Shown: positions 4,349 through 26,761 of the stretch, piece by piece | Position numbering within the stretch: the stretch's first letter is position 1 | How the letters are laid out: each line of letters begins with the position of its first letter | DNA from: Cloacibacillus evryensis DSM 19522 | GTDB taxonomy: Bacteria > Synergistota > Synergistia > Synergistales > Synergistaceae | Reading direction: 5' to 3' | DNA: 64,000 bases | Assembly (NCBI RefSeq): GCF_000585335.1 | Contig: NZ_KK073872.1 | Coordinates: 661,317-725,316 of the forward strand | Translations under genes and position numbers: made by a program | Notes under the pieces: generated by a model | What the model was told of the DNA's origin: nothing | Seen by the model: only the letters and a program-made list of their open reading frames with translations | Database searches by the model: none

Positions 4349-4397
4349 GGGCCGTGGACAGGTTTCGTTCTTTCGTTGCCGGAGGGTTGAGGATGTC

Positions 4398-5564
4398 ATG
4401 AAAAGGTTTATTCTGATCCCCGATTCGTTCAAGGGTACCATGAGCTCGATGGAGATATGCGGGATCATGGCTGAGGCAATAAAGGCGCATATTCCCGACG
4501 CCGGCGTGCGCGGCATCCCCGTGGCGGACGGCGGAGAGGGCACGGTGGAGGCGTTTATTTCCGCCGTTGGCGGAGAGAAACGTGAAACCGCCGTCACCGG
4601 CCCCCGGTTTGAGAAGATAAGCTCGTTTTACGGAGCGCTGTACGACGGAAAGACCGCTGTCGTGGAGATGTCCGCCGCCGCGGGGCTGCCGCTGATGGGT
4701 AGCAGCCTCGACGTTCTTGGCAGCACGACCTTCGGCGTCGGCGAATTGATCCTCGAAGCGGTCAGAGGCGGTGCGGGACAGGTGATAATCGGCCTTGGCG
4801 GCAGCGCGACGAACGACGGCGGCTGCGGCGCGGCCGCGGCGCTCGGCGTCGTTTTTCGCGACGGAGAGGGACGTCCCTTCGTTCCTACGGGCGGCACGCT
4901 CTCTTCGATCGCCTCGGTGGAGACGGGCGGCATCGCGCCGGAGCTGAAAGATGTCAGGATCACGGCGATGTGCGACATAGACAATCCGCTTTACGGCGAG
5001 AGGGGCGCGGCTTACGTTTTCGCTCCGCAAAAAGGAGCCTCGCGTGAAGTGGTCCAGCTCCTCGACGCCGGCTTAAAACACCTCAATGAGACTGTCAAGC
5101 GCTGCCTCGGCGCGGACCGCGCCGAGGACAGAGGCGCCGGCGCGGCCGGCGGCATGGGCTACGGTTTCGCGGCGTTTCTCGGCGCGGAATTGAAAATGGG
5201 AATAGACGTCGTGCTTGACGCGGTCGACTTCGACGGTCTCCTTAAGGGAGCGGACTGCGTATTCACGGGCGAGGGCAGGATAGACTCGCAGAGCCTCGGC
5301 GGAAAGGTTGTCATCGGAGTCGCGCGCCGCGCGAAGAGACGCGGCGTGCCGGTGATCGCGGTCGTCGGAGATGTCGGCGACGGCATCGGCGGCGCTTACG
5401 AAGAAGGGGTATCCGCGATCTTCCCGATCAACCGCGTGGCGGTCCCCTACAGCGAGGCGCGGCTGCGCGCAAAAAGCGACCTGCGGCTGACGGTCGAGGA
5501 CATCGTCCGGCTGATAAAGACAGCCGAGCTGCGGCAGAGCGATGTCCGCCGCCTGCCTTTGTAA
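4398..5564 (+). CDS. glxK: Glycerate 2-kinase (GlxK/GarK family)
   Basis: A 388-aa kinase of the bacterial glycerate kinase family, which phosphorylates D-glycerate to 2-phosphoglycerate and feeds lower glycolysis. The N terminus MKRFILIPDSFKGTMSS and the motifs ADGGEGTVEAF (about residue 39), GLGGSATNDGGCGAAAALG (near 135) and FTGEGRIDSQS (near 288) are typical, and the length is normal. ATG 4398 is preceded by GGAGGG at 11 bp and GAGG at 4 bp. A longer in-frame extension back into gntP exists but is not family-like. It is the last gene of the cdaR-gntP-glxK group, followed by a terminator. Confidence 0.93.
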   Translation: MKRFILIPDSFKGTMSSMEICGIMAEAIKAHIPDAGVRGIPVADGGEGTVEAFISAVGGEKRETAVTGPRFEKISSFYGALYDGKTAVVEMSAAAGLPLMGSSLDVLGSTTFGVGELILEAVRGGAGQVIIGLGGSATNDGGCGAAAALGVVFRDGEGRPFVPTGGTLSSIASVETGGIAPELKDVRITAMCDIDNPLYGERGAAYVFAPQKGASREVVQLLDAGLKHLNETVKRCLGADRAEDRGAGAAGGMGYGFAAFLGAELKMGIDVVLDAVDFDGLLKGADCVFTGEGRIDSQSLGGKVVIGVARRAKRRGVPVIAVVGDVGDGIGGAYEEGVSAIFPINRVAVPYSEARLRAKSDLRLTVEDIVRLIKTAELRQSDVRRLPL

Positions 5565-5637
5565 AGGAATTCCGGGAATGCCGGCGTAAGGGACCGCTTC
5601 CCGCGAGTTTTCAGCAAGCAGGAAGGTAATAATAAGT

Positions 5638-5662
5638 AAGCCCGGCCTCCAAGGCCGGGCTT
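5638..5662. terminator. Bidirectional terminator between glxK and the nitronate monooxygenase gene
   Basis: Stem AAGCCCGGCC (5638) pairs with GGCCGGGCTT (ending 5662) across a short TCCAA-like loop. It stands between the 3' ends of two convergent genes. No long T run follows on either side, so efficiency is uncertain. Confidence 0.7.
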
Positions 5663-5668
5663 GTTCAT

Positions 5669-6790
5669 TTAATGCGCCGTTTTTAGTTCCGGCAGCCTGA
5701 AGTCTTCAACGAGCTCTCTTATCAGGTCTTTTACCTTGCCGATCGATTTGACCTGTGATACGTTGCTGCCGCAGAAGAAGAGACCGTTTTCCCAGTCGCC
5801 CTTATAGGCGCTTACCAGAGCGTCGGCGATGCAGAAGGTCTCGTGCTGAAGGCGGCAGAGGCAATGTGAGAGGCACCCCGCGCGGCAGCCCACTTTTTCC
5901 AGCGCTCCGGAGAAGTAGCGTTCGATGAGCGGGCTCATGATCGCGCGCCCCGGCAGCCCGCAGGGGCTCTTTATGAGAACGACGTCCTTCTCTTCCGCAT
6001 CGATGTATGCCTGCTTGAAGCGGTCGGAGGCGTCGCCCTCTTCGGTGGCGGCGAAGCGGGTGCCCATCTGGACGCCGCTCGCGCCCATTTCCAGGGCATC
6101 CTTGATGTCCTTACCGTCCCAGATGCCGCCAGCCGATATTACCGGTATATTATGGCCCAATTCTTTTAAATACTTTACAAGCGCGGGAACGACCTCTTTC
6201 AGCGAAAGATTTTCGTCCATAGCCTGTTCCTGATCGCGGGCCCCCAGATGGCCTCCGGCGGTATTCGGGGTCTCGACGACGAAGGCGTCGGGAAGCCTGC
6301 CGTAGTGTTTGAGCCAGCGGTTGAGGATGAGTCCCGCCGCCTTGACGCTGCTCACGATCGGCACAAGCGCGGTGTCGGGATATCCCTCTGCCAGCTGCGG
6401 CAGTTTGAGCGGCAGCCCCGCGCCCGAGATGATGATATCCGCCCCCGCCTCGCAGGAGGTGCGGACAAGCTGATCGTAGTCGCTCAGCGCGCACATGCAA
6501 TTTACCGCGATGACGCCCCCGTTTGAAGTTTCCTTGGCCTCTTTTATGTATTGTGAAAGTATTTTGTGGTTTTGATTATCGATATTTTTACTGCCGGAAC
6601 CCATATCAAAATCAGGCGACGAAGCGGCGAGCCCCACGGAGGCGATGGTGCCGATCCCTCCCGCGGCGGCTACGGCGCCGGCCAACCTGGGACCTGACAC
6701 CATTATGCCCATTCCTCCCTGGATGATGGGATATTTAGGCTGATGTTTCCCAATGGTTAATAATGGTAATTCTATTTTTTTATCGATCAT
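5669..6790 (-). CDS. Nitronate monooxygenase / 2-nitropropane dioxygenase family protein
   Basis: A 373-aa FMN-binding TIM-barrel protein of the NPD/NMO family, which also includes FabK-type enoyl-ACP reductases. Visible motifs are PIIQGGMGIMVSGPRLAGAV at the N terminus, the flavin-phosphate loop VISAGGIWDGKD followed by ALEMGASGVQMGTRFAATEE, and a C-terminal cysteine-rich segment (CRAGCLSHCLCRLQHETFC) common in anaerobe homologues. Family members oxidise alkyl nitronates or act as flavin reductases; the substrate here is not known. GGAAGG lies upstream of the ATG. The gene stands alone between convergent glxK and divergent umuC-like genes. FabK is a less likely alternative because no fatty-acid genes are nearby. 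Confidence 0.87.
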   Translation of the reverse strand: MIDKKIELPLLTIGKHQPKYPIIQGGMGIMVSGPRLAGAVAAAGGIGTIASVGLAASSPDFDMGSGSKNIDNQNHKILSQYIKEAKETSNGGVIAVNCMCALSDYDQLVRTSCEAGADIIISGAGLPLKLPQLAEGYPDTALVPIVSSVKAAGLILNRWLKHYGRLPDAFVVETPNTAGGHLGARDQEQAMDENLSLKEVVPALVKYLKELGHNIPVISAGGIWDGKDIKDALEMGASGVQMGTRFAATEEGDASDRFKQAYIDAEEKDVVLIKSPCGLPGRAIMSPLIERYFSGALEKVGCRAGCLSHCLCRLQHETFCIADALVSAYKGDWENGLFFCGSNVSQVKSIGKVKDLIRELVEDFRLPELKTAH

Positions 6791-6950
6791 TTTAAGTTCC
6801 TTCCAGGTATTTGTTTAAAAATATTATATCCATTAATATAATAATGGAATCTTGTATATACTATTCCATAAAACCCGCTTTGGCAAGCCCTTTTTAGAAT
6901 ATTGCCGGGGGAAGATAAGATAGAATTGTATTGTTATAGTTTACTTATAG

Positions 6951-6984
6951 TTGACATTATGGTTGTTTTTAAATATAGTATATT
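6951..6984 (+). promoter_or_regulatory. Sigma-70-type promoter of the umuC-like gene
   Basis: TTGACA at 6951-6956 and TATAGT at 6974-6979 are separated by 17 bp. The -10 box lies within a perfect 13-bp palindrome (AATATAGTATATT, 6972-6984), a possible repressor site such as an SOS operator. The start codon is 30 bp downstream. Confidence 0.7.
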
Positions 6985-7013
6985 AAAAGTTTTTATAAAG
7001 GAGAATATGTTAC

Positions 7014-8342
7014 ATGGAGGATATGGCTTCGCGTGCCATCGGGCTTTGCGACTGCAATAATTTCTTTGTCTCCTGCGAACGGCGTGAAAATCCGGCGCTT
7101 ATTGACCGGCCGGTGGTCGTCCTGAGCGGCAACGACGGATGTATCGTTGCGCGTTCCAACGAAGTGAAGGCTATGGGCGTGCCGATGGGTGAGCCCTATT
7201 TCAAGGTCAGGGGGCTGTTGGAACGCGCCGGCGCGGCGGTGCTCAGCGGCCGCCTTTCTCTTTATAACAAGATCTCCGCCGAGGTAATGTCGCGTCTTGC
7301 GTGTTTCAGCGATGTCACGGAGGTCTATTCGATAGATGAGGCTTTTATAAATCTCGCGATACCATCAATAAAGGACCCCGCCGCCTATTGCATGGAGCTG
7401 CGGAAGGATATCTGGCGGCATTGTTCGATCCCCGTATCGGTGGGGATATCTTCCACGAAGACGCTGGCAAAGCTGGCGTCGCACTGCGCGAAGCATTCTG
7501 ATAGCGGGGTCTTTTGGCTGAAGCGGGACTCTTATGCCGATCCGCGGTGGATGGCGCAGTTTGAGGTCGGCGATATATGGGGAGTCGGGAGGCGTATGGC
7601 AAAGCGCCTCAATCTCTATCACCGGATCTTGACCGCCGCGGATTTTGTATCGGCGGACGATCTGCTTCTTAAACGGGATTTTTCTGTAAACGCTCTTTAT
7701 ACGGCCTGGGAGCTGCGCGGCTATCCGGTCTATCCGCTCGCGGGAGGTCGGCGCGCGCCTAAGTCCATACAGGTCTCCCGTTCTTTTGGCGAGGCGGTAT
7801 TCTCTTACGACGAACTGCAGGAGGCTGTATCATATTTTACGCTCTGTGCCGCGCGGCAGCTGCGGGCCGCGAAGCAACGCGCCTCGCGCATGGGGGTATA
7901 CATAACGACGAGCCGTTTCCGCACGGATAATTTCTACGCGCGCGAAGACGCGCGCTCTTTTTCGTCTCCCCGTTCGCTTGACTGTGATTTTTTATCTGCG
8001 GCCAGGGATATGCTTGCCGGCATCTACAGAGAAGGCTGCGCCTATAAGAAGGCGGGGGTGGTCCTCGATGACTTTACCGATGTCAGCTGCGGCGTGCAGC
8101 AGCTTCTGTTTGATGAGGAGGGGCGGCCTGCGGCGCGGGAGGGGAAGTTCCTGCTGGCGGCCGCCGTCACCGACTCCCTGAACCGCGAATTCGGGCGCCT
8201 CGTCATCGGCTCCGCCGATAATTTCGGCGCGCCGGAGAGAAAGTCAAAATGGTATCCGCGGCGCGGGCATAGCGCCGCCGAGAACGATTACCGTGACCGC
8301 CCGGCGCTGCCGATCGGCCCTTCGAGAAGGGTCGGTTTTTAG
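7014..8342 (+). CDS. umuC: Y-family DNA polymerase, UmuC-like
   Basis: A 442-aa translesion polymerase of the UmuC branch. The N-terminal catalytic motifs are clear: GLCDCNNFFVSCER (first acidic residue and steric gate region), VVLSGNDGCIVARSNEVKAMGVPMG, and YSIDEAFINL (catalytic Asp-Glu). A thumb/helix-hairpin-helix segment (FEVGDIWGVGRRMAKRL) and a little-finger domain follow. UmuC copies damaged DNA, normally with a UmuD' partner; no umuD is seen in this window, so it may be encoded elsewhere or not used. The ATG has AAAGGAG 10 bp upstream. A strong promoter with a palindrome over the -10 box suggests SOS-type control. Confidence 0.92.
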   Translation: MEDMASRAIGLCDCNNFFVSCERRENPALIDRPVVVLSGNDGCIVARSNEVKAMGVPMGEPYFKVRGLLERAGAAVLSGRLSLYNKISAEVMSRLACFSDVTEVYSIDEAFINLAIPSIKDPAAYCMELRKDIWRHCSIPVSVGISSTKTLAKLASHCAKHSDSGVFWLKRDSYADPRWMAQFEVGDIWGVGRRMAKRLNLYHRILTAADFVSADDLLLKRDFSVNALYTAWELRGYPVYPLAGGRRAPKSIQVSRSFGEAVFSYDELQEAVSYFTLCAARQLRAAKQRASRMGVYITTSRFRTDNFYAREDARSFSSPRSLDCDFLSAARDMLAGIYREGCAYKKAGVVLDDFTDVSCGVQQLLFDEEGRPAAREGKFLLAAAVTDSLNREFGRLVIGSADNFGAPERKSKWYPRRGHSAAENDYRDRPALPIGPSRRVGF

Positions 8343-8366
8343 GGGGGCCGCCGTAAAATAAAAAGG

Positions 8367-8403
8367 AAGAGAGGCCTTTGAACAACGATCGAAGGCCTCT
8401 CTT
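8367..8403. terminator. Bidirectional terminator, umuC-like gene / rubrerythrin
   Basis: A perfect 12-bp stem (AAGAGAGGCCTT with AAGGCCTCTCTT) encloses a 13-nt loop. On the minus strand it is followed by CCTTTTTATTTT, ideal for ending rubrerythrin transcription; on the plus strand the downstream sequence is only mildly T-rich. Confidence 0.88.
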
Positions 8404-8443
8404 ATATCTTTGCAAGGCGGCCGGATGCGCCGCTTTTTTGTTT

Positions 8444-8932
8444 TTAGAATTTCTGGAAGATCGAGGGTTTTGCTCCGCAAATGGGGCAGGGGCTGCTTGT
8501 TTCGCCCTTGTGGATGAATCCGCAGATGGGGCAGAGATAGTAATCGGAATCGGTATTGCTCATATCGGCAAGCGCCTCTTTGTAGAGCTTCGCATGTACC
8601 TTTTCTGCTTCGTTGGCATAGTGGAAGATACGGGCTGCTTCTTTGTTGCCCTCGGCCTTTGCCTGTTCGATCATCGGGGGATACATCTCGGAGAATTCAT
8701 AGGTCTCTCCGTCAATACCGGCCTGAAGGTTGTCCGCCGTTGTGCCCACGCCGCCCTTTGCCTTGAATTCAGCGAAAGCGTGAATGGTCTCCGCCGCCGC
8801 GGTGGCGCGGAAGAGCTTCGCTATGCCGGCAAATCCGTCCTTTTCCGCCTGCTCGGCGAACATAAGGTACTTACGGTTGGCCTGTGATTCTCCCGCGAAA
8901 GCGGTTGCGAAATTTTCCTGTGTGGTTGACAT
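8444..8932 (-). CDS. rbr: Rubrerythrin
   Basis: A 162-aa cytoplasmic peroxide-scavenging protein of anaerobes. The N-terminal four-helix ferritin-like domain (about residues 1-125) holds the diiron ligands in ExxH pairs (AAAETIHAFAE and NEAEKVHAKLY). The C-terminal rubredoxin-like domain binds one iron through two CPxCG pairs (YLCPICGFIHKG and CPICGAKP). Length and domain order are standard. GGAGG precedes the ATG by about 9 bp. It is monocistronic, with its own terminator. Rubrerythrin reduces hydrogen peroxide with electrons from NAD(P)H through rubredoxin-type carriers and marks the host as an anaerobe. Confidence 0.97.
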   Translation of the reverse strand: MSTTQENFATAFAGESQANRKYLMFAEQAEKDGFAGIAKLFRATAAAETIHAFAEFKAKGGVGTTADNLQAGIDGETYEFSEMYPPMIEQAKAEGNKEAARIFHYANEAEKVHAKLYKEALADMSNTDSDYYLCPICGFIHKGETSSPCPICGAKPSIFQKF

Positions 8933-9063
8933 GATCAGTTTTCCTCCTTGTGGTTTTTATGCCCTATTTCTTGGTTTAATTCCCAAAACCTATATAGTTA
9001 TTTAAAACTATTTTAGTTTAACGCCATTCTCTAATTTTGTCAAGTTTAAAAACGGAATTTTTC

Positions 9064-9591
9064 TTAATATTCGACGCCTTTGCGCGCGCTGACGCCGCTG
9101 CGGTATGGATGCTTGATCTCTTTTATCTCGCTGACGAGATCTGCCATTTCGAGCAGTGATTTCGGCGCGTTTCTCCCTGTGAGAACGATCTCTGTTTTTT
9201 CAGGTTTACGGCCGATCAGCTCCGCTACGTCGTCGGCGTCGATGAGTCCGAAGTCTATCGCGACGTTGATCTCGTCGAGTATAACGAGGTCATATTCACC
9301 GGAGGCGATGAACTTTTCGGCCTCTTTCAGACCGCGCGACGCCTCTGTAAAGTCTTCTGCCGTTTCGTCGCCGCGGAAGATGCATTTGTCACGGCCGGTG
9401 TGGACGAGAGTCACATTTGGCAGATGCTTGACGGCGGCCAGCTCGCCATACTGTGCCCAGCCCTTCATGAACTGCACTATCGCGACGCGCGCGCCGTGGC
9501 CGCAGGCGCGCAGCGCCAGCCCGAGGGCGGCGGTAGTCTTGCCTTTTCCATCCCCGGTGTATATTTCAATGAGTCCTTTTGAGCCAAACAT
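9064..9591 (-). CDS. cobO: Corrinoid (cob(I)yrinic acid a,c-diamide) adenosyltransferase
   Basis: A 175-aa CobA/CobO/BtuR-type enzyme that transfers the 5'-deoxyadenosyl group of ATP to cob(I)alamin or cob(I)yrinate diamide, making coenzyme B12. The P-loop is GDGKGKTTAALGLALRA near the N terminus; FMKGWAQYGE and DLVILDEINVA (Walker B) follow. I chose ATG 9591: GGGGAAGG stands at good distance, while the upstream GTG at 9603 abuts that site. It lies about 50 bp downstream of the Nudix gene on the same strand. No other B12 genes are near, which fits a salvage role serving B12-dependent amino-acid mutases. Confidence 0.93.
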   Translation of the reverse strand: MFGSKGLIEIYTGDGKGKTTAALGLALRACGHGARVAIVQFMKGWAQYGELAAVKHLPNVTLVHTGRDKCIFRGDETAEDFTEASRGLKEAEKFIASGEYDLVILDEINVAIDFGLIDADDVAELIGRKPEKTEIVLTGRNAPKSLLEMADLVSEIKEIKHPYRSGVSARKGVEY

Positions 9592-9641
9592 CTTATCACA
9601 CACCTTCCCCTTTTATTTTCTCAATATTGCTTTACTATGCA

Positions 9642-10574
9642 TCAGTATTTTGTATGTCTTTTTATAAAATCCTCTATGAGTTTTGCGGAGATGCTGATGC
9701 CGCGGTAGTATTCGGGGATTTCACCGGGGGCGAACCAGCGGACGTCGGTGACTTCCGTGGTGTCCGGGCAGATGTCCCCCGATTCCCATTCGGCGACAAA
9801 GCCGAGCATCAGCGAACGCGGGAATGGCCAAGGCTGGCTGTTGAAGTATCTTATGTTCTTGACTCGTATCCGCGATTCCTCGTAGACCTCGCGCGCGACG
9901 CACTCTTCAAGGCTCTCTCCCGGCTCGACGAAGCCCGCAAGCACGCTGTAGCGCCCCGCGGGGAAGTTGACGCCGTGTCCGAGAAGGATTTTCCCCTCTT
10001 TCTCGACGCAGACGATGATCGCCGGCGAGATGACGGGGTAAAATAGTTCCCCGCACGAGGGGCATCTCATAGCGCCCTCCGCCGGGTCGAAGAGGTTCGC
10101 CGCGCCGCATCTGCCGCAGTGTTTATGGAGTCTCTGCCAGTCCATGATGTGGAAGGCCTTGCCGATGCGGAAGAATTGTTCCTCGCCGACCGCCGTCCAG
10201 CAGCCGCGCCGTTCGCAGGCGGCGAAGCCCTCGGGCAGCGCCGCCTCCGTATCGAGCTCCGCCCAGCGGTCCCCGACGCGCGCCGCCCCCTGTCCGCGCC
10301 CAGCGCGGACATCATAGATTTCTTCAGGGGGCAAGCCTGCGGATGCGTCTGCCGCGCACGCCGCCCCCTGTCCGCGCCCAGCGCGGACATCATAGATTTC
10401 TTCAGGGGGCAAGCCTGCGGATGCGTCTGCCGCGCACGCCGCGTTGTCTTCTTTATCTACGCAGCCGCTGTTGAGGAAGTTCTTCCTGAACTTCCCCGCG
10501 TCTGTCGCTTCCGGTATCGCGCCGTTTTCTTTGAGGATTATTTTTCCGTTTTGAAATATATAATAAAAGGACAT
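9642..10574 (-). CDS. nudC: Nudix hydrolase, NudC-type NADH pyrophosphatase, with internal duplication
   Basis: A 310-aa protein of the NudC family, which cleaves NAD(H) to NMN(H) and AMP and can remove NAD caps from RNA. A zinc ribbon (HCGRCGAAN ... RCPSCGELFYP) precedes the Nudix box (GFVEPGESLEECVAREVYEES), and QPWPFPRSLM is the NudC-specific SQPWPFP motif. The N-terminal region carries two perfect in-frame copies of a 26-residue segment rich in Ala, Gly and Asp (DNA 10281-10358 and 10359-10436). They make the protein longer than the usual 255-280 aa and are probably an inserted, duplicated repeat. The catalytic part looks intact. Confidence 0.9.
   Translation of the reverse strand: MSFYYIFQNGKIILKENGAIPEATDAGKFRKNFLNSGCVDKEDNAACAADASAGLPPEEIYDVRAGRGQGAACAADASAGLPPEEIYDVRAGRGQGAARVGDRWAELDTEAALPEGFAACERRGCWTAVGEEQFFRIGKAFHIMDWQRLHKHCGRCGAANLFDPAEGAMRCPSCGELFYPVISPAIIVCVEKEGKILLGHGVNFPAGRYSVLAGFVEPGESLEECVAREVYEESRIRVKNIRYFNSQPWPFPRSLMLGFVAEWESGDICPDTTEVTDVRWFAPGEIPEYYRGISISAKLIEDFIKRHTKY
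10281..10436 (-). repeat. 78-bp perfect tandem duplication within nudC
   Basis: Two identical 78-bp units lie head to tail. Each holds a 9-bp hairpin (TGTCCGCGC / GCGCGGACA with loop CCA) inside outer arms GCCCCCTG / CAGGGGGC. The length is a multiple of three and the unit is read through in frame on the minus strand. This layout resembles palindromic repeats that insert into coding regions, such as the RPE elements of Rickettsia; whether other copies exist in this genome is not visible here. Confidence 0.9.
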
Positions 10575-18202: not shown

Positions 18203-18442
18203 ATGGCTGAGCTGACTACCGTTTCTCATAAAGGGCAGATAACAATACCGAAAGCTTTTCGCGATGAGTTTGATATTCAGCCAGGCGACAGGGTCTTTTT
18301 TGTGAAGACGGAAAAGGGAATTATGATAACAAAACCGAAAAAGACCCTGCTTGAATATAAAGGATTTCTGGTCGGCGCGAAAGTGGAAAGCCCGGACGAC
18401 GCGGCCAAGGAATTTGCTGAACACATAATGGGAGAAGCGTAA
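18203..18442 (+). CDS. AbrB/MazE-type antitoxin
   Basis: A 79-aa swapped-hairpin AbrB-family protein (ELTTVSHKGQITIPKAFRDEFDIQPGDRVFF is the DNA-binding domain, with a C-terminal toxin-binding tail). It has GAGGAG upstream and its stop overlaps the next start by one base (TAATG), so the two are translationally coupled. Together they form a type II toxin-antitoxin operon in which this protein neutralises the PIN toxin and represses the pair. Confidence 0.92.
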   Translation: MAELTTVSHKGQITIPKAFRDEFDIQPGDRVFFVKTEKGIMITKPKKTLLEYKGFLVGAKVESPDDAAKEFAEHIMGEA

Positions 18443-18849
18443 TGGCGACGTTTGTCGACGCCAATGTTTTTATAAGATTCTTTGCAAATGACGATAAGGT
18501 TCAGTCTGAAGCCGCGGAAAAACTTTTCCAAAAAGCGCGTTCAGGGGCGGCGGAGCTGCTGACCGGACCTCCGGTATTTTTTGAGATCGCCTGGGTGCTT
18601 GGCTATCGATATAAGATAAAGAGCGAAGAGATTATGGACATCCTTGAATCCATAGTTGGCTGGCCAGGTATCTCCGTTTTGGATGAAACGCTTGTCCTGA
18701 AAGCGATCGCGTTGGCGCGCGAAACAAAATCGGAGTTCGCCGACGCCTATATCGCGGCCAGCGCTGGTAACGCCGGCGCAAACGATATCGCAACTTTCAA
18801 TAAAAAGCATTTTATAAGGCTGAAGCAGGAACTCTGTCAGGAAATTTAG
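18442..18849 (+). CDS. vapC: PIN-domain ribonuclease toxin (VapC-like)
   Basis: A 135-aa PIN-domain protein. Acidic active-site residues are visible: the N-terminal FVDANVFIRFF (first Asp), a Glu in FFEIAWVLGY, ETKSEFADAYIAA (Glu and Asp) and the final Asp in ANDIATFNKKHF. VapC toxins cleave specific tRNAs or rRNA to slow growth. It directly follows and overlaps its AbrB-type antitoxin by one base. No terminator is obvious before the convergent gene ending at 18928. Confidence 0.92.
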   Translation: MATFVDANVFIRFFANDDKVQSEAAEKLFQKARSGAAELLTGPPVFFEIAWVLGYRYKIKSEEIMDILESIVGWPGISVLDETLVLKAIALARETKSEFADAYIAASAGNAGANDIATFNKKHFIRLKQELCQEI

Positions 18850-18927: not shown

Positions 18928-19494
18928 TTACGCTCTGGATATTTCCTCCAGCATCTCATAATCTTTTGAGCTGATGAGCGCGGCTTCGGCGGAGTTTTCG
19001 ATCAGCAGGGATATCACTTCGTCGAGGCGGCGCGTCATCGCCTTTTTGTGGATTTTTTTCAGCAGCGCGGCGGGAGCGCGTTCGGCTATTTCGCAGCCGG
19101 CTTCGCCTGTCCTGGCGTGCCATTTTGAGTAGAGTCCCACGAGCCATTCCGCCTCGGGCGAGATGTCGCGGAAGGCGGCCATACCGGCCTTTTCGTGGGG
19201 CACGGTCTCTATTTCGACGCCCTGCTGCGCGCAGCGGACCATGAAGTCGCGGAAGACCTCGTCCATTTTCAGCGAGAGGAGGGTCTCGGGGCGGTCGAGG
19301 GAGAGGGAGAAGTCCAATTCCATAAATTTCTGCGCGAAGTCCCAGATGTCGAGGCGGCGGCGGACCGCGGCGGTGAACACCGCTTCGAGGTATTCCCTAT
19401 GGATCTGTTCGAGTGTCTTTTTCGCGAGCTCCGCGCAGTGTCTTTTGGACTCCTGGTCGTATTTTCCGTATATTTCCAAGGTCGATTTCAGCAT
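18928..19494 (-). CDS. Unknown helical protein, third gene of the VirD4-like/AAA+ operon
   Basis: A 188-aa protein that I do not recognise. It is rich in Glu, Lys, Leu and Ala, has no signal peptide or membrane segment, and reads as mostly helical (for example HREYLEAVFTAAVRRRLDIWDFAQKFMELDF near residue 33 and LLKKIHKKAMTRRLDEVISLL near 145). Its start overlaps the AAA+ gene by 7 bp, a sign of coupled translation and partnership. It could be an adaptor or effector subunit for the AAA+ protein; that is inference from position only. Confidence 0.75.
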   Translation of the reverse strand: MLKSTLEIYGKYDQESKRHCAELAKKTLEQIHREYLEAVFTAAVRRRLDIWDFAQKFMELDFSLSLDRPETLLSLKMDEVFRDFMVRCAQQGVEIETVPHEKAGMAAFRDISPEAEWLVGLYSKWHARTGEAGCEIAERAPAALLKKIHKKAMTRRLDEVISLLIENSAEAALISSKDYEMLEEISRA

Positions 19495-20318
19495 GGTTGT
19501 CCGTCTTTCTCCAAGTATCTGTCCATTTTGAGGGCGGCGGCGCCTCTGGCGTCATCCGCCGTGATCTCCTTCGCGTATTCTCCGGGCGGCAGGTTTATCT
19601 GCGCCGCCGATACCGTGTAGTGGAGCAGTTCGAGCGACCGCGCCGGCTCCGACCTTTCGGGGGCGCAGAGTGCCGCGAGCCTCGTCGTCTCCGAGATCGC
19701 CTCTTTGGTGATGTCGGTCTGCGGGTAACGTACGCGCGCCACGCGCTCCACTATTTCCAGCAGCCGCTGACGGCCCGGCTCTCTGAGTTCGACGGACTGG
19801 AAGCGGCGTTCCATCGCCCGGTCACGGGCGATGTACTGGCGGAATTCTTCGGATGTGGTCGAGATGAGCATGCTGATGCCGCCGCTCGTTATGTAGGGCT
19901 TCAGCGTGTTCAGAAGGTTTGAAGGGCCGGCGTTCTCGCTGAGCCTATGCGCCTCGTCTACATAGATGATAATGTTGTAATATTCGGCCTCGTCAAGGAT
20001 ATGCTTGAATCTCAGGTCTCTCTTTTTGCGGTCCTGGTTTATCAGGTCTATGTTCAGCTCGACGACGCGCCGCCCCGCGAGGCGCGCGTAGCGGCCCTCT
20101 TCGATGAGCGCCGCGAGTTTGCGTACCGTAGTCGTCTTGCCGCAGCCGGCGGGGCCGGTGAGCGCGACGTTGTTCTGCTCTTCCGAGGCGAGGGCGACGG
20201 CGATGCGGTCCAGCGCCGTATAATCTTCGAGTATCTGTTCGATGCCGCCGCTTTTGCCGTTGAGTTCCCTGCCGTATTTCGCGCAGAGCGGCGGCAGTTT
20301 GCCGGTCCTGAGGTTCAT
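19488..20318 (-). CDS. Single-domain ClpB/ClpA-type AAA+ ATPase
   Basis: A 276-aa AAA+ protein that corresponds to one nucleotide-binding domain of a Clp/Hsp100 unfoldase. Walker A is GPAGCGKTTT (about residue 55), Walker B IIIYVDEAH (near 118), sensor-1 STTSEEFRQYI (near 155) and an arginine-finger segment AMERRFQSVEL (near 170), all closely ClpB D1-like. It lacks the N-domain, the second ATPase domain and any ClpP-binding loop. It overlaps the upstream VirD4-like gene by 4 bp (ATGA) and the downstream gene by 7 bp. It probably remodels a protein partner encoded in the operon. All catalytic motifs appear intact, unlike in the upstream gene. Confidence 0.85.
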   Translation of the reverse strand: MNLRTGKLPPLCAKYGRELNGKSGGIEQILEDYTALDRIAVALASEEQNNVALTGPAGCGKTTTVRKLAALIEEGRYARLAGRRVVELNIDLINQDRKKRDLRFKHILDEAEYYNIIIYVDEAHRLSENAGPSNLLNTLKPYITSGGISMLISTTSEEFRQYIARDRAMERRFQSVELREPGRQRLLEIVERVARVRYPQTDITKEAISETTRLAALCAPERSEPARSLELLHYTVSAAQINLPPGEYAKEITADDARGAAALKMDRYLEKDGQPC

Positions 20319-21775
20319 AGCGTCTCCCCCTCTTCAAGGAGCGATTCCAGCGTCAATTTTTCGTGCCGCGCCGCTCCCTCCGTTATCCAGAGTTTTGCCG
20401 CCTGGCGCGAGCGGCGCAGCCTCGCGCGCTTCCTGACCGGCGACGGCGGAGGGCTCTCCTCAAGTGAGGAGTAGCTTACGCGTCCCTCTTTTTCCACCGC
20501 GCGGATCTCTTCGTTGAGATCCTCCGGCCTGTAGATGACGTCCGCCGCCGATACGTAGGAGCCGAAGGCGCGGCCGATGCGCTCCTCTTCGCTTGCGTGC
20601 CATATCCTCTGCGTGCTCGCGGAATAGAGTGTTTCCAGCAGTTGGTCGTCCCCCGTCCGGCTTTCGAGCGACAGGCGTGAAAAGTTGTCGTAGCCAAAGG
20701 CAAAGCTGAGGCGGTCCCAGCTCTGACGGAATTTATCAAGGTAATTGAGCAGCCCCCAGCGGTCGAGTTCGGGGATGAGTATCACGGCGCGGCGCTTTGT
20801 GTTGCGCGCCGCGGCGCCGAGCGCGGCGATCAGCAGCGGCGCGAATCCCCGATCTGCCGAGGTGTTGCCGCTTGAGCAGACGAAGAGCGGACGTCCCTCC
20901 GGCGAGGCCAGGTAGTCGCCCAGTTTTAGCGTCTCAAGGCCGCGGAACAGTTCGCTGCCGCGCATCATCAGCGTTATCAGCGCGCGGAAGTCCGAGGTGC
21001 TGGCGTCGGCCTGCATTTTGATGCAGCGCTGGGTGTTGGTGTTGTCTCCGTTCGTGAAGAGCAGGTCTGCGAACGGCACCGGCGCGTCGCGGTCTCCGTT
21101 TTTCTGGAATCGCAGTTCGTGGTCGAGAATGTATTTCGCCAGCGCGAATTCCCTCGTGATAAAGCCGCTCTTCGACTCCGCCTCTTTGAGCCTGTATTTC
21201 ACCGGAAGCGTGTCGGACTCGCCGCCGATGGTCTTAGTCATCAGCGTCTCGATAAATCTGTGCTGGCGGCAGAAGATCTTGAAGAGGTTCAGTCTGGCCA
21301 GGAGGCGGACGACGCCCTCCCCGCCCTCTTCGCTGGCGCAGGCGGCGATGTTGTGGACGACGTTTTTCGCCGTTTCCAGCATATAGATGAGCATTCTGTC
21401 AGTCGAGAGCTTGCCGAGATCGTCAAAGAACTTGTCGTTGGCGTCGCGGGATTTTATCTCCTGATAGACCGCCTGGCGCAGCGCGTAGGCGATGTTTTCG
21501 CTTCCAGCGCCGATGTCTTCGTTGGCGGCGAAGGGTTCGATGAGGTCCGGGATGACGGAGCCCTCGCTGGAAAGATCGGCAAGCAGCGCGTCGCCCGCAA
21601 AGCTCTCATATAGACGCCCCTTGTGGTCGAGCACGACAAGCGCATGGTCCGGACAGGCTTCGGGCCACATTTCGATTATCTTGCCGATGCTGGCGTTTTT
21701 CCTTTCGGTGTTCCCAAGCAGGAGAGTGTCCTCCCCGCATATGATCCCGGCGCTGAATTTTTCGATTTCCACCAT
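20315..21775 (-). CDS. VirD4/TraG-like protein lacking Walker A, function unknown
   Basis: A 486-aa protein with a layout reminiscent of type IV coupling proteins: LLLGNTERKNASIGKIIEMW stands where a P-loop would be but has no GxxxxGK, followed by ALVVLDHKGRLYESFAG (compare VVLDxKGE in VirD4), then PLFVCSSG, RAVILIPELDRWG at the Walker B position and FAFGYDNFSRL ... RIWHASEEERIGRAFGSYVSA like the TraG C-terminal motif set. No membrane segments are seen. It would be a catalytically dead or scaffold ATPase-fold protein. GGAGAA precedes the ATG. It is first in a three-gene operon with an active AAA+ ATPase. The VirD4 assignment is by motif spacing and remains tentative. Confidence 0.6.
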   Translation of the reverse strand: MVEIEKFSAGIICGEDTLLLGNTERKNASIGKIIEMWPEACPDHALVVLDHKGRLYESFAGDALLADLSSEGSVIPDLIEPFAANEDIGAGSENIAYALRQAVYQEIKSRDANDKFFDDLGKLSTDRMLIYMLETAKNVVHNIAACASEEGGEGVVRLLARLNLFKIFCRQHRFIETLMTKTIGGESDTLPVKYRLKEAESKSGFITREFALAKYILDHELRFQKNGDRDAPVPFADLLFTNGDNTNTQRCIKMQADASTSDFRALITLMMRGSELFRGLETLKLGDYLASPEGRPLFVCSSGNTSADRGFAPLLIAALGAAARNTKRRAVILIPELDRWGLLNYLDKFRQSWDRLSFAFGYDNFSRLSLESRTGDDQLLETLYSASTQRIWHASEEERIGRAFGSYVSAADVIYRPEDLNEEIRAVEKEGRVSYSSLEESPPPSPVRKRARLRRSRQAAKLWITEGAARHEKLTLESLLEEGETL

Positions 21776-22001
21776 GATGATTCTCCGTCCGCGGCTCCCG
21801 CCACTTACATTGAAAGCCGCCGCTAAAATAAAAGGTCAAGCTCCATACCATGAAAAAGAATAACATAGACCGGCGGATTTGAAAATGCGCCGGCCGCCGC
21901 AGTCTCCGGAGCTAAAACAGAGCGACGAAAAACGCCCTCTGTTCAGGCGGTTTGTGTACGTATGGCTATATCACCGGTGTACGGCCGTTTTTTGTCACAC
22001 G

Positions 22002-22009: not shown

Positions 22010-22113
22010 GGGCGTGTGAAAAAAACTCTGTAAATATGGACCTTCTGTGAGAAATCCAATACAACTAGGGCTAATAACGATCCCTGTATAACAAAATTAT
22101 CAACCTATTAAGT

Positions 22114-22146
22114 GGCCAGTGTCAATACAAACACTGACCGCTTTTT
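22114..22146 (+). terminator. Terminator-like hairpin inside the IS256 3' part
   Basis: GGCCAGTGT pairs with ACACTGACC across an 8-nt loop, followed by GCTTTTT. On the plus strand it would block outside transcription entering the element, a common safeguard of insertion sequences. Confidence 0.65.
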
Positions 22147-22197
22147 ATTAATTGTGTTAATTGCATACCTAAGATCGAGTCGGAAAAAATCAACCTC

Positions 22198-22268
22198 GGG
22201 CTTAGTTCAGCAATAAATCTCTTTAGTCCGTAATGCAGCAATCTTACGCTTAGTTCCGCAATAGGCGG
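22198..22268 (+). repeat. Subterminal repeats, left end of the IS30-like element
   Basis: Three imperfect units of about 23-26 bp share GCTTAGTT..GCAAT: near 22199-22215, 22221-22243 (diverged) and 22248-22262. Comparable units occur at the right end (23856-23927: GCTTAATCTTGCAAGA, GTTTACATTTGCAAAC, GCTTAGTTTTACAATC). They are likely transposase-binding sites. Confidence 0.55.
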
Positions 22269-22314
22269 TATTATACAGCCGTTTCGTTCGACCTGGCTCT
22301 GAATGGAGACGACT

Positions 22315-23634
22315 ATGATGAAACAGTATAAACACATTAACGGAAACGACAGGGTAGCTATTCAATTGGGACTGGAAAGAGGCGACTTTTTTAAAACAAT
22401 AGCTGAAGCAATCGGCAAACATCCTTCATCTGTGGCAAATGAAGTCAGAAAATATCGTGAGTTTAAGAAGTGCGGCGCACAGGGAAACGTCTTTAACGAC
22501 TGCGCCCACAGGTTCGACTGCAGGAAAACAAATCTTTGCGACTCACCACAGTGCAGACGAAAGAATTGCCGGTTCTGCGCCAGATGCCGTGATCACTGCG
22601 GCGAGTATGAGCTGGAAAGGTGTGCCAAGCTTGCCAAGCCGCCGTATGTCTGTTATGGATGTCGGCAGAAACAGCATTGCACTCTTGAAAAAGCTTTTTA
22701 TGACGCAGGGATTGCAAACCAGACCTCTTTGAACGTACTCTCCGAATCACGCATGGGCATCAATGCAGATGAGGAAGATATGGAATGCTGGACGAAGACA
22801 ATCGTGCCTTTAATAAAGCGCGGTCAGTCACTGTATCATATCCTGCATACGACCTCTGACACTGCGAATTTACCGTCGCAGAGGACTTTGTATTCATACG
22901 TCGAAAAGGGGGGTCTATCCGGTGTATGCAGCCTGGATCTGCCCCGACAGGTAAAGTACAAGAAGAGGTATGTTAAGCGGACTAAAACCGATACCGCTTA
23001 CCGCAAGGGGCGGAGTCACGAAGAGTTTCTTAAGTACATGGAAGAAAACCCGGACACTCCTCTTGTCGAAATAGACTCGGTTGTCGATGCAGGAGGAAAG
23101 CACGCGATACTTACAATGCACTTTGTGGAAATAAGCATGATGCTGGCATATTTAAGGAACGGCAAGGACTCGCAGAGCGTCGTCAATATATTCGACACGC
23201 TGACGGAGTCTTTGGGCCTTGAGAAATTTCGCGAATTGTTTCCCGTCATCCTCACCGATAATGGAAGCGAATTCTCAAATCCGGAGATGCTTGAAAAAAC
23301 CTCTTCAGGCGAATCACGCACGAAAATTTTCTTTTGCGAGCCGTACTCCTCATATAAGAAAGGCGCTATAGAAAACAATCATGAACTTATTCGCAGGATA
23401 CTGCCGAAGGGCATAAGCTTCGAAGGACTTGCCCAAAAAGACATCACGGATATGATGAACAACATCAATTCTTATGCAAGGAAAAAGCTGAACGGCCATA
23501 CGCCTTACGACATGTTCAGCTTTCTCCATGGCGCTGAGAGCGCCGGGCTGTTGCGAGAGCTCGGCCTCAAAGCTGTTAAAGCAAAGAGTGTGCTGCTTAC
23601 GCCAAGTCTCATAAGCCGTAAGCAACCTAAGTAA
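22315..23634 (+). CDS. IS30-family transposase with cysteine-rich insert
   Basis: A 439-aa DDE transposase. The N-terminal helix-turn-helix (HINGNDRVAIQLGLERGDFFKTIAEAIG) is the IS30 HTH_38 type. Residues about 45-125 hold many cysteines in CxxC and CxxxC spacing (for example CRRKNCRFCARCRDHC), suggesting zinc binding, a feature not found in classical IS30. The catalytic triad lies in VEIDSVV, ILTDNGSEF and GAIENNHELIRR. ATG 22315 is taken because GGAGA stands about 5 bp upstream; ATG codons at 22303 and 22318 are alternatives. The gene appears intact. Confidence 0.9.
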   Translation: MMKQYKHINGNDRVAIQLGLERGDFFKTIAEAIGKHPSSVANEVRKYREFKKCGAQGNVFNDCAHRFDCRKTNLCDSPQCRRKNCRFCARCRDHCGEYELERCAKLAKPPYVCYGCRQKQHCTLEKAFYDAGIANQTSLNVLSESRMGINADEEDMECWTKTIVPLIKRGQSLYHILHTTSDTANLPSQRTLYSYVEKGGLSGVCSLDLPRQVKYKKRYVKRTKTDTAYRKGRSHEEFLKYMEENPDTPLVEIDSVVDAGGKHAILTMHFVEISMMLAYLRNGKDSQSVVNIFDTLTESLGLEKFRELFPVILTDNGSEFSNPEMLEKTSSGESRTKIFFCEPYSSYKKGAIENNHELIRRILPKGISFEGLAQKDITDMMNNINSYARKKLNGHTPYDMFSFLHGAESAGLLRELGLKAVKAKSVLLTPSLISRKQPK

Positions 23635-23945
23635 ACTATAGTACAGGTCGGACGGAAAAACAATACCTATAACCGTAAAAACAGGTCGCGTTTACCAATG
23701 CAAATTTTGTTCAAATACGCCTTGTAAGATAGGTTTGTGTCAAATTAGGCGCGTTTTTTACTTCAGGAGCATGAGAAGCAAGCGATGCTTCTCATATCCT
23801 TACTCCCAGCACTTGTTCTCAACTCATATATTACTTCTTGTAAGATAACGTAATCGCGCTTAATCTTGCAAGACTCTGCTCATCGCGTTTACATTTGCAA
23901 ACTTGGGCTTAGTTTTACAATCGACGGCTTTTTATTAATCTTAGC

Positions 23946-25187
23946 CTATTCAGGCATCCGTCCTTCATACATTACAGCTAGTTCACCAAGGATACTGCGC
24001 CAGTTCCTAACTGGCATACTCCATTTTTTGGTCGCCTCAAAAGTAGCCAGATATAAGGCTTTTAAAAGGGCGCCTGCGCTGGGGAATACGCTTCTTTGGC
24101 TGTTGAGCCTGCGATAGCTGGAATTAAGGCTTTCTATCGCGTTTGTCGTGTAAATGACCTTTCTTACCTGGCAAGAAAATTTAAATATCGGAGAGATCGT
24201 ATCCCAGTTGCGCTCCCACCCCTTCACTGCATTTGCATATTTTGATCCCCATTTCTCAGCAACACGATCCCTGGCTTCCAGCGCATGGGACTCGTCGGGA
24301 GCTTGATAGATTGTTTTCAGGTCTGCGGCAAATTCTTTGCGGTCTTTTTCAACCACATATTTCATAGTGCTCCTGACCTGATGTATAAGGCAGCGCTGGT
24401 ATTCGGTCTGCGGGAACGCACTTTCGACTGCTTCGCGCATTCCGCTAAGGCCGTCTGCACAGAGAATGAAGATATCCCTTACACCACGGTTCTTCAGGGA
24501 ATTCAGGACTGTCAGCCAGTATTTGGCGCTTTCATTTTCCCCCACCTGCAGAGAAAGCACTTCTTTTATACCGTTGCTGTTGATTCCAAGTATTACATAG
24601 GCTGCGAGCTTCTTTACTGCGTTATCTTCCCTAACAGAATAATGAATCGCATCTATAAAAACAATGGGATAGACTTCGGAGAGTGGCCTGTTCTGCCATT
24701 CTTCGATCTGCGGCATTATCTTGTCAGTCACATCCGATATGAAGCCTTCTGAGACGTCGAACCCGTAAATATCCTGTATCGTTGCCGATATCTGACGGGT
24801 AGTCATTCCTTTAGCGTACATAGATATTATTTTCTGGTCTATCTCGGAAATATCTTTTTGTCGCTTTCTTACTATCTTAGGCTCGAAGCTGGATTCCCTG
24901 TCCTGAGGAACGTCTATGGAAAACTCTCCAAAACTTGAGTTTACATGCTTTTGTTTGTATCCGTTGCGGTAGTCGCTGCCTTCTGAACGCTGAGATTTCT
25001 TATAACCGAGATGTTCGTCCATCTCAGTCTCCATCATCTCTTTAATCGTACCACCCAGAAGATCTTTCAGCGCATCCTGGATATCCTTTGCAGATTTGAT
25101 ATCGTATTCCTGAAGTAGGTATCTGATGATATCTCTTTTCCCGTCTGTCATCTGAACTTTGTGAGTAATCTTCTTATCTTTTGCCAT
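23946..25187 (-). CDS. IS256-family (Mutator-type) transposase
   Basis: A 413-aa transposase of the IS256/Mutator class. Typical blocks are ALKDLLGGTIKEMMETEMDEHLGY, YRNGYKQKHV, MYAKGMTTRQISATI, the acidic catalytic segment FIDAIHYSVRE, FILCADGLSGMREAVESAFPQTEYQRCLIHQVRST and the C-terminal TTNAIESLNSSYRRL carrying the last glutamate. Length and motif order are complete, so it should be functional. The RBS AGGAGGCC-like stretch precedes ATG 25187. It lies inside the 28-bp inverted repeats described for the element. Confidence 0.96.
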   Translation of the reverse strand: MAKDKKITHKVQMTDGKRDIIRYLLQEYDIKSAKDIQDALKDLLGGTIKEMMETEMDEHLGYKKSQRSEGSDYRNGYKQKHVNSSFGEFSIDVPQDRESSFEPKIVRKRQKDISEIDQKIISMYAKGMTTRQISATIQDIYGFDVSEGFISDVTDKIMPQIEEWQNRPLSEVYPIVFIDAIHYSVREDNAVKKLAAYVILGINSNGIKEVLSLQVGENESAKYWLTVLNSLKNRGVRDIFILCADGLSGMREAVESAFPQTEYQRCLIHQVRSTMKYVVEKDRKEFAADLKTIYQAPDESHALEARDRVAEKWGSKYANAVKGWERNWDTISPIFKFSCQVRKVIYTTNAIESLNSSYRRLNSQRSVFPSAGALLKALYLATFEATKKWSMPVRNWRSILGELAVMYEGRMPE

Positions 25188-25265
25188 TTAAAAGGCCTCC
25201 TGTAAGTAATTTTAATTTATCACAGAAGGCCTTTTTTTGCGATTTCTATATTTACAGAGTTTATT

Positions 25266-26630
25266 TCATAGGCTCCTTAAATCAGAAATATCCACCTCAT
25301 ATGTCAGCCCTTTTGGTACTTGAGCGGGACGGAGGAACATTACCAGATACCACGGCAGGTATGTAATGCCGTTTTCTGTTTCAATGTTATCCGCGCACAG
25401 GACGTAGACGCCGCCAAAGCTCCACCCTTCTACGCCGAGGACGTTGTCCAGCGCCTTGTGCTTTTTGTAGTCGCCGCCGGATTTGACCTCTGCCAAATCG
25501 ATGCGCATGCCATTCTGTATGACGAAATCGACCTCTCCGTGCCTTTTAGAATCGTAATAGCGAAGTATAAAGCCGTTTGCCTTAAGCTGCAGGGCGATGG
25601 CATCTTCCAGAATGCTGCCCATGTTGATCTCAAGCCGTCCGTTAAGAATTTCAAACTGAATGTTATCCATGCAGGCCGCGCAGAGCAGGCCGGTATCATT
25701 CATGAACAGTTTGAACAGGCTGTGCTTTTCATTGAGCGCCAGCGGAGGCTTCGGTTCCTTTACATTGTAGCACGGCAGTGCCACGCCGGCGTCGTCCAGC
25801 CATTTAAAGCTGTTGTCATAGCGGGTCAGGCGCGCGTTTTTGTCCAGATAGTTGACGTAGAAGCGACGGTTTTTTTCGTTGAGCTGAGTGGGGATGCTGT
25901 CAAAAATCGCCCTGATCTTTATCTTGTCGTTCCCTTCGGCATACTGCGCGATATCAAGGCGGTACTGTTCGAGGATATCCCGCTGATTTGTAATCACTCT
26001 GCCAATATCATGGGTATCTACATAGGTCTGTACCACCTCCGGCATTCCGCCGACGACGACGTAGCTGTAGAAGAGTTTTTTCATCGTGTTGTGGACTGAC
26101 TGCGATACCGGCGTTTTATCATCAAAACATTTTTTCAGATATGCGATCGTAGATACCTGCACGCCGTTTGCCCACAAATATTCTTCGAAATCCATAGGAT
26201 ACATACGGTATATTTCCTCAAAACCCACCGGATAAGATTTGACCTCTTTATGCTTTACTCCGAGCATTGAACCGGATTCTATATAATCAAAGCGTCCGTC
26301 TTCCACGAGGAACTTAATGGCAGTACGTACATCGGGGCACTTTTGAACTTCGTCAAACAGCACCAACGTCTTCCCTGGTTCCATCGAGCGGCGGACGTAA
26401 GCGGTCAGGTTTGTGATGATTGTGTCAGCGTCCAGGCTGCCGGCGAAAATCTCGCAGGCGCCATCGTCAGTAACGAAGTTGATTTCCACGAAATTTTCGT
26501 AATTCTGTCGTCCAAACTCACGGATGAGCGTGGTTTTGCCGATCTGACGAGCGCCGATGATGCACAGCGCCTTTTTCTTTTTTGTCCCCTTCCACTCCAT
26601 TAGCTTATCATATGCTTTTCGCCTCAGCAT
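25266..26630 (-). CDS. AAA_14 / DUF4143 ATPase
   Basis: A 454-aa protein with an N-terminal AAA_14 ATPase (Walker A IGARQIGKTTLIREF near residue 28, Walker B TLVLFDEVQKCPD near 90) and a C-terminal DUF4143 nuclease-like domain (GSILEDAIALQLKANG ... GEVDFVIQNGMRIDLAEVKSG, a PD-(D/E)XK-type ExK core). The family is common and largely uncharacterised. ATG 26630 has GAGGTG 6 bp upstream; a GTG 9 bp earlier is less likely. The stop codon lies inside the IS256 right end: the last residues RSL come from IS sequence, whereas the pre-insertion frame would have ended in SV. The change is two or three residues, so function is probably retained. Confidence 0.87.
   Translation of the reverse strand: MLRRKAYDKLMEWKGTKKKKALCIIGARQIGKTTLIREFGRQNYENFVEINFVTDDGACEIFAGSLDADTIITNLTAYVRRSMEPGKTLVLFDEVQKCPDVRTAIKFLVEDGRFDYIESGSMLGVKHKEVKSYPVGFEEIYRMYPMDFEEYLWANGVQVSTIAYLKKCFDDKTPVSQSVHNTMKKLFYSYVVVGGMPEVVQTYVDTHDIGRVITNQRDILEQYRLDIAQYAEGNDKIKIRAIFDSIPTQLNEKNRRFYVNYLDKNARLTRYDNSFKWLDDAGVALPCYNVKEPKPPLALNEKHSLFKLFMNDTGLLCAACMDNIQFEILNGRLEINMGSILEDAIALQLKANGFILRYYDSKRHGEVDFVIQNGMRIDLAEVKSGGDYKKHKALDNVLGVEGWSFGGVYVLCADNIETENGITYLPWYLVMFLRPAQVPKGLTYEVDISDLRSL
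25276..25283. repeat. IS256 target-site duplication, right copy
   Basis: CTTAAATC follows the right inverted repeat directly and matches 22002-22009. Confidence 0.85.
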
Positions 26631-26761
26631 GAAACGCACCTCGTTTATCGTTGTTCGCGATGGTAGCGTAACATAATTTTATATTTTTAACAACGACATG
26701 TCACATTATTCTCAATAAATCGGGCGCTTATGTCACAATATTTTACGCACCGGACGGCAAA

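Follow-up and report, generated by a model that had tools for sequence, protein, structure and literature searches.

HerA/FtsK proteins that come with Orc/CDC6- or SF3-type AAA+ partners and active endonucleases have been described, in the part of the report available, as capture systems directed against invaders (PMC10853773). In the MoxR-vWA (VMAP) conflict systems, according to the available part of another report, predicted inactive FtsK domains are already known among the variable effectors, and inactive enzymes serve as decoys (PMC7159879). The present study concerns three genes, here called A, B and C or together the trio, in a 64,000-nucleotide stretch of the genome of Cloacibacillus evryensis DSM 19522 (contig NZ_KK073872.1, positions 661,317 to 725,316), which is referred to as the window. 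Gene A probably encodes a dead protein of the VirD4/HerA type, gene B a Clp-derived AAA+ ATPase and gene C a helical protein. The trio resembles the capture systems in that a protein of probable HerA/FtsK fold is encoded with an AAA+ ATPase, but its AAA+ protein is a Clp D1 domain, A has no P-loop and the trio contains no nuclease, which sets it apart from what the accessible text describes (PMC10853773). The MoxR-vWA systems likewise have an AAA+ ATPase beside other proteins, some of them with an inactive FtsK-type domain; as far as that source goes, however, they are built on MoxR and vWA with variable effectors (PMC7159879), whereas here a Clp D1 domain accompanies a fixed and conserved whole protein. 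Literature searches for the layout found no described case of a Clp-derived ATPase operon-linked to a disabled VirD4/HerA-type protein, in agreement with the initial annotation of the window, which knew of no system arranged in this way.

The three open reading frames are present on the minus strand where the initial annotation had placed them, with overlaps of 4 bp between A and B (20315-20318) and 7 bp between B and C (19488-19494). All ten loci, the window and nine others, have the genes in the order A-B-C. The 4-bp A/B overlap recurs in the window and eight of the other loci, and in the remaining one (L019) the start of B is not fixed. Of 60 relatives, 10 have a match to A, as do 12 of 185 Synergistota genomes. 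A profile of the B family matches Clp-type proteins in 180 of the 185, but its 13 strongest matches (E<=7.8e-105) are confined to the same 12 A-bearing genomes, and the next among the matches listed is a Clp-sized frame at 3.3e-58. Strong matches to C (E<=5.3e-89) are restricted to the ten trio genomes of the 185, with one weak match elsewhere (E 0.0089). It had been suggested that recurrence of the three genes together in diverse genomes would speak for a system; they do recur together, but the carriers belong to one clade of six genera within the Synergistaceae. In a tree of the Met-tRNA formyltransferase gene (fmt) the ten carriers form one clade with a support of 0.934. This tree is built on one gene from 36 of 52 family genomes (15 genomes with a match and one without were left out), and in one row (G002) an in-frame stop was read as X. 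The carriers are all the sampled members of the six genera, and the other 42 family genomes have no A match; single absences are no proof because the completeness of some non-carriers is limited and falls to 55%. Pairwise identities of A follow those of the fmt marker (Mantel r 0.84, p 1e-4, 10 genomes), and the ratios of non-synonymous to synonymous substitution rates (dN/dS) against the sister genome are 0.128 for A, 0.124 for B and 0.141 for C. The trio is under purifying selection and is vertically inherited.

Divergent A-B pairs exist in three further loci (L022, L034 and L035). The L022 genome also carries the trio; its divergent A homologue shows 21% identity and its B homologue has 571 amino acids, with a D1 part that is 35% identical. 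In L034 an interrupted A (possibly an assembly error) and a B of 298 amino acids are followed by a ClpP, and the locus also holds an 894-amino-acid protein with a segment resembling a helix-turn-helix (HTH). In L035 an HTH-like protein accompanies an A that lies in two frames and a B of two parts. The searches for A covered Synergistota, close relatives and viral contigs and, with the L022 A homologue as query, plasmids and phages. No A homologue was found in viral contigs with the A profile or the L022 homologue, nor in plasmids and phages with the latter. A scan of genome contigs, whose reach is limited to close relatives, gave five loci among 130 pattern matches (three in Synergistes sp., one in a Synergistaceae bacterium and one in Candidatus Caccocola). 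Searches with B outside Synergistota returned ordinary Clp-type proteins, judged by annotation or length, and the 80 viral loci from the B search contained no A homologue.

Gene B was described in the initial annotation as one intact ClpB-type AAA+ domain, and this is borne out by complete ATPase motifs and by best profile matches that lie on Clp D1. Its top NCBIfam matches are ClpA (2.1e-26), ClpV (3.5e-26) and ClpB (1.8e-20), residues 14-244 align to the D1 part of these profiles, and the best matches in the PDB are Hsp104, ClpC and ClpA. Motifs were read by aligning B to two further Clp-type proteins of its genome, labelled ClpC- and ClpB-like. Like the Clp/Hsp100 proteins ClpA, ClpB, ClpC and ClpV, B retains Walker A, Walker B, the sensor-1 Thr and the ERRF arginine fingers. 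In contrast to them it ends after the D1 lid, with neither an N domain nor a second AAA ring (D2), lacks the aromatic residue of pore loop 1 and is encoded with a dead VirD4/HerA-type protein. All ten trio B proteins keep the ATPase motifs and have lost the pore-loop aromatic, and their pore-loop-1 stretch is three residues shorter than TKYRGEFEER of the ClpC-like protein. The Tyr is kept in the divergent B proteins of L022 and L034 and absent in that of L035. B should, to judge from its motifs, hydrolyse ATP, yet it would not be a textbook threading unfoldase, and the proposal that it is an active unfoldase motor becomes doubtful because the aromatic is missing. It should be noted here that B is not the only Clp-type ATPase of its genome, since Clp-type frames of 826 and 883 amino acids are also encoded there.

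Gene A has no family match at E<=1 in Pfam, PADLOC, NCBIfam, PHROGs or the PDB sequences. A profile of 11 homologues was compared by hhalign with an alignment of five HerA sequences and one of 10 VirD4/TraG sequences. It scored 35.7 with HerA and 31.0 with VirD4/TraG, where the maxima in 100 column shuffles each were 28.1 and 24.1. Profiles of B and C, used as decoys, reached 17.2 and 14.4. In the profile register residues 8-65 align with the HerA P-loop and strand-2 motif and residues 44-137 with the corresponding VirD4 stretch. In this register the P-loop strand and the strand-2 motif ('VLDxKG') correspond to those of type IV coupling proteins and HerA, and the ND-FF/W stretch of A aligns with a similar stretch of the coupling proteins. 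The predicted structure is weak, with a mean predicted local distance difference test score (pLDDT) of 47.3 and ten-residue blocks of 63-86 at residues 11-60 and of 39-76 at residues 291-390. In VIA-align this model comes closest to the solved structures of HerA (Z 12.6) and TrwB (Z 12.1), followed by Rho, Cag-beta and VirB4 (Z 10.6-11.1) and by F1 folds (Z about 9.6), so that Rho and the F1 folds trail the top matches by about Z 1.5-3. Foldseek ranks a Legionella coupling complex first (E 0.012) and gives no match at E<=0.001. Gene A probably has a VirD4/HerA-type core, because the excess over shuffles, the register and the structure comparison of the weak model point the same way. The initial annotation had seen here a coupling-protein fold without its P-loop. 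The fold is probable, and the Walker A P-loop (GK[ST]) is absent at its position in 11 of 11 aligned A rows. The Asp of Walker B is likewise missing in the ten trio rows, where the strand was placed by reading. A differs from the coupling proteins and HerA in the loss of this loop, and hydropathy shows no transmembrane segment that could be the N-terminal anchor of a coupling protein (highest 19-residue mean 1.02). Its C-terminal tail is more conserved than the variable linker before it (mean pairwise identity 0.73 and 0.45 in the ten trio rows), and the linker is basic, with 6-10 K/R and 1-6 D/E in 23-25 residues. A search of the genome with the tail pattern found A itself and one site with 2 mismatches (control 0). 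Coordinates are collected in Table 1.

Table 1. Coordinates of the trio genes, their motifs and an upstream element in the window
Feature	Position	Strand	Description and basis
Gene A	20315..21775	minus	Open reading frame, 486 amino acids; probable dead VirD4/HerA-type (FtsK-HerA superfamily) protein
Gene B	19488..20318	minus	Open reading frame, 276 amino acids; single Clp/Hsp100 D1-type AAA+ ATPase
Gene C	18928..19494	minus	Open reading frame, 188 amino acids; predicted all-helical
Walker A of B	20133..20156	minus	GPAGCGKT; alignment
Walker B of B	19947..19973	minus	IIIYVDEAH; alignment
Arginine-finger pair of B	19803..19808	minus	R171 R172; alignment
Pore-loop-1 stretch of B (by alignment to Clp)	20010..20042	minus	Aromatic absent; alignment
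Walker A remnant of A	21689..21715	minus	GNTERKNAS (HerA: GSTGSGKS); alignment register
Probable Walker B remnant of A	20768..20785	minus	VILIPE (Asp replaced); strand assigned by sequence reading and strand order in model
Conserved C-terminal tail of A	20318..20395	minus	Residues 461-486, LW...LTLESLLEEGETL, after variable basic linker
Putative promoter element	21857..21865	minus	Extended -10 TGTTATTCT; by eye from alignment, not in sigma-70 scan list

Gene C, which had been noted as an unmatched helical protein, is predicted to be all-helical (pLDDT 74.8 for the best of five models, 65.4 to 48.4 for the others) and remains unmatched. No match at E<=1 was found in Pfam, NCBIfam or PADLOC, PHROGs gave two weak matches to families of unknown function (E 0.13 and 0.34), and the structure search returned no significant match, its best Z of 4.7 being not meaningful. 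A relationship of C to the HTH-like protein of L034 and L035 was considered and rejected, as the hhalign scores of 13.1-18.5 do not exceed those of shuffled profiles (maxima 19.3-21.6 in sets of 60 shuffles). Neither A nor C belongs to a family that bears a name in the libraries searched.

We tentatively read the trio as a Clp-derived ATPase complex with A as a dead scaffold or client-holder and C as an adaptor, working by remodelling rather than by threading; this reading is plausible but may well prove wrong. B would form the ATP-hydrolysing ring of a cytosolic complex. A, without its ATP-binding loop, could hold a client or act as a scaffold bound to B, its conserved C-terminal tail perhaps providing the contact, and C could be playing the part of an adaptor. 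ATP turnover by B would then remodel or release a protein or DNA complex held by A, with no passage through a pore. Remodelling is preferred to threading because the gripping aromatic is gone in the trio lineage. Two of the three divergent B proteins keep the pore-loop Tyr, and one of them is followed by a ClpP of its own, which suggests descent of the module from a protease-linked machine. Copies of ring motors that are dead but maintained by selection usually have a regulatory or scaffolding role. The trio offers a small, purifiable system in which the function of a Clp ring after loss of its gripping loop can be studied, and it raises the question of whether the ring families for protein remodelling and for DNA pumping have merged into one machine. 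Its relatives, one with a ClpP of its own and one beside a candidate defence set, allow alternative outputs to be compared side by side.

Several points weigh against a remodelling complex of this composition. The hhalign probabilities for A are low, 14.7% with HerA and 4.6% with VirD4/TraG, and no signal was obtained with a four-sequence VirD4 set (16.1) or with a second HerA/FtsK-like set (14.3). The placement of the A motifs rests on profile register and reading because the A model is poor (pLDDT 47). The B proteins of L022 and L035 are longer and have a second AAA-like part (an AAA_2 match in L035, by reading in L022), so the D1-only form of B is not universal. ClpP adjoins one of the 13 A-B loci (L034), and gene adjacency by itself is no proof of a complex.

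It is possible, though rather unlikely, that the trio is a defence module, in which A would sense or block invading DNA or its packaging or coupling machinery, and B and C would deliver the response. This idea draws on L022, where a complete PDC-M69A/B/C set, a candidate system of PADLOC, adjoins the B gene of the divergent pair (1.7e-41, 3.9e-102 and 7.3e-76). Its members are an XRE regulator (PDC-M69A), an IrrE-like peptidase and a protein without Pfam match, and an integrase-like gene was recognized by reading at 3318-4556, past the set. The stretch 5012-10151 of that locus is a candidate defence island. There is also precedent, within what the two partly available sources describe, in HerA/FtsK proteins with Orc/CDC6-type AAA+ partners in counter-invader systems (PMC10853773) and in predicted inactive FtsK domains and inactive decoy enzymes of MoxR-vWA conflict systems (PMC7159879). 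On the other hand the trio is vertically inherited, is present in all 10 sampled genomes of six genera and has no nuclease or toxin gene of its own. PADLOC-DB 2.0.0 gives nothing for A or C at E<=1 and no system-level match for B, whose matches are weak AAA ones (best mad8, 6e-6 over part of the profile). No PDC-M69 match was found among the window genes tested (the trio, PIN, MazE and DUF4143). The initial annotation had taken the neighbouring genes as a hint of defence. The G+C content at third codon positions (GC3) of the trio is 0.76-0.78, native in comparison with the metallo-beta-lactamase-fold gene (0.79) and the M3 peptidase gene (0.80) of the window, whereas it is 0.48 for MazE, 0.54 for PIN, 0.49 and 0.54 for two transposases and 0.61 for the DUF4143 ATPase. 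These toxin-antitoxin, transposase and DUF4143 genes have no match in the 19.9 kb surrounding the sister genome's trio, and they look like later arrivals, inserted beside a trio whose carriers form one clade with vertical inheritance. The neighbours therefore say little on the function of the trio and are no argument for defence.

In L034 a ClpP paralogue (6872-7462; PF00574, 2.6e-77) overlaps the end of B. It has the motifs GQAASMGA, HQPLGG and DRDFF, which we take to be the catalytic ones, and is 59% identical to another ClpP elsewhere in the same genome. The divergent B proteins of L022 and L034 keep the pore-loop Tyr. It is nevertheless unlikely that B still serves a ClpP as feeder or (weak) unfoldase, with substrates selected by A and C. 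Each of the ten carriers does have a ClpP elsewhere in its genome, but none has a ClpP match near the trio, and the trio B proteins lack the pore-loop aromatic. Clp ATPases have an IGF/IGL docking loop, and none was seen by eye in B.

The fold family of A handles DNA, and the linker of A is basic. The trio could thus be a nucleic-acid-handling ATPase separate from defence, with B as loader or switch and A as DNA-binding clamp, but we consider this quite improbable. Homology connects the HTH-like proteins of L034 and L035 (E 6e-8), and L022 has the XRE-type regulator that is also PDC-M69A, all of which would suit such a role. The HTH-like protein was rejected as a fixed partner, however, as its family is dispersed, with matches in 32 of the 185 Synergistota genomes and up to four in a single genome. 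Among 18 loci of this family (L247-L264, from 46 listed matches besides L034 and L035) no A homologue was found, and two loci had weak AAA matches (5e-5 and 9e-5). Open reading frames in these loci were chosen greedily, and one HTH-bearing frame in L247 was dropped. C, moreover, is not measurably related to the family.

A more speculative thought, to which we give little credence, is that the trio is a cell-encoded machine against coupling, in which A, as a dead copy of a coupling protein that pumps DNA, would mimic or co-assemble with the coupling or packaging motor of an invader and B and C would dismantle the mixed assembly. Such a machine, if real, would amount to a resident block to DNA transfer, inherited vertically and made of a pseudo-motor and a Clp ring. 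A decaying remnant of a conjugative element, which the likeness of A to coupling proteins and the loss of its ATPase motifs might suggest, is rejected as most improbable, as all three genes are under purifying selection in a conserved order and the coupling gene family PF02534 (T4SS-DNA_transf), matched only outside the carriers, in 4 of 60 relatives, has no match in this genome or in any of the 10 carriers. The last result also fits the earlier remark that the trio lies outside any conjugation region.

Downstream of C, on the other strand, a MazE-like antitoxin is paired with a PIN toxin (18203-18849), both foreign-looking in GC3. On the other side of the trio an IS256-type (Mutator) transposase and a second one, which on account of HTH_38 we take to be IS30-like, lie within 29-nucleotide inverted arms (22012-22040 and 25245-25273, 86% complementary), an arrangement (22012-25273) that looks as if one insertion sequence (IS) element had inserted in the other. 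The AAA_14/DUF4143 ATPase at 25266-26639 has a GC3 below that of the native genes and matches the PADLOC candidate PDC-S01 (5.2e-172). An extended -10 similar to the putative promoter element of Table 1 was seen by eye upstream of A in 8 of 10 loci. No CodY box with <=3 mismatches was found upstream of A, and the spaced variant turned up at a single site, with 2 mismatches, in L018. An M3 peptidase gene is found near the trio in six loci and a metallo-beta-lactamase-fold gene in five, the window counted, and L020 has the M3 gene directly beside A and a gene for an iron-type alcohol dehydrogenase after C.

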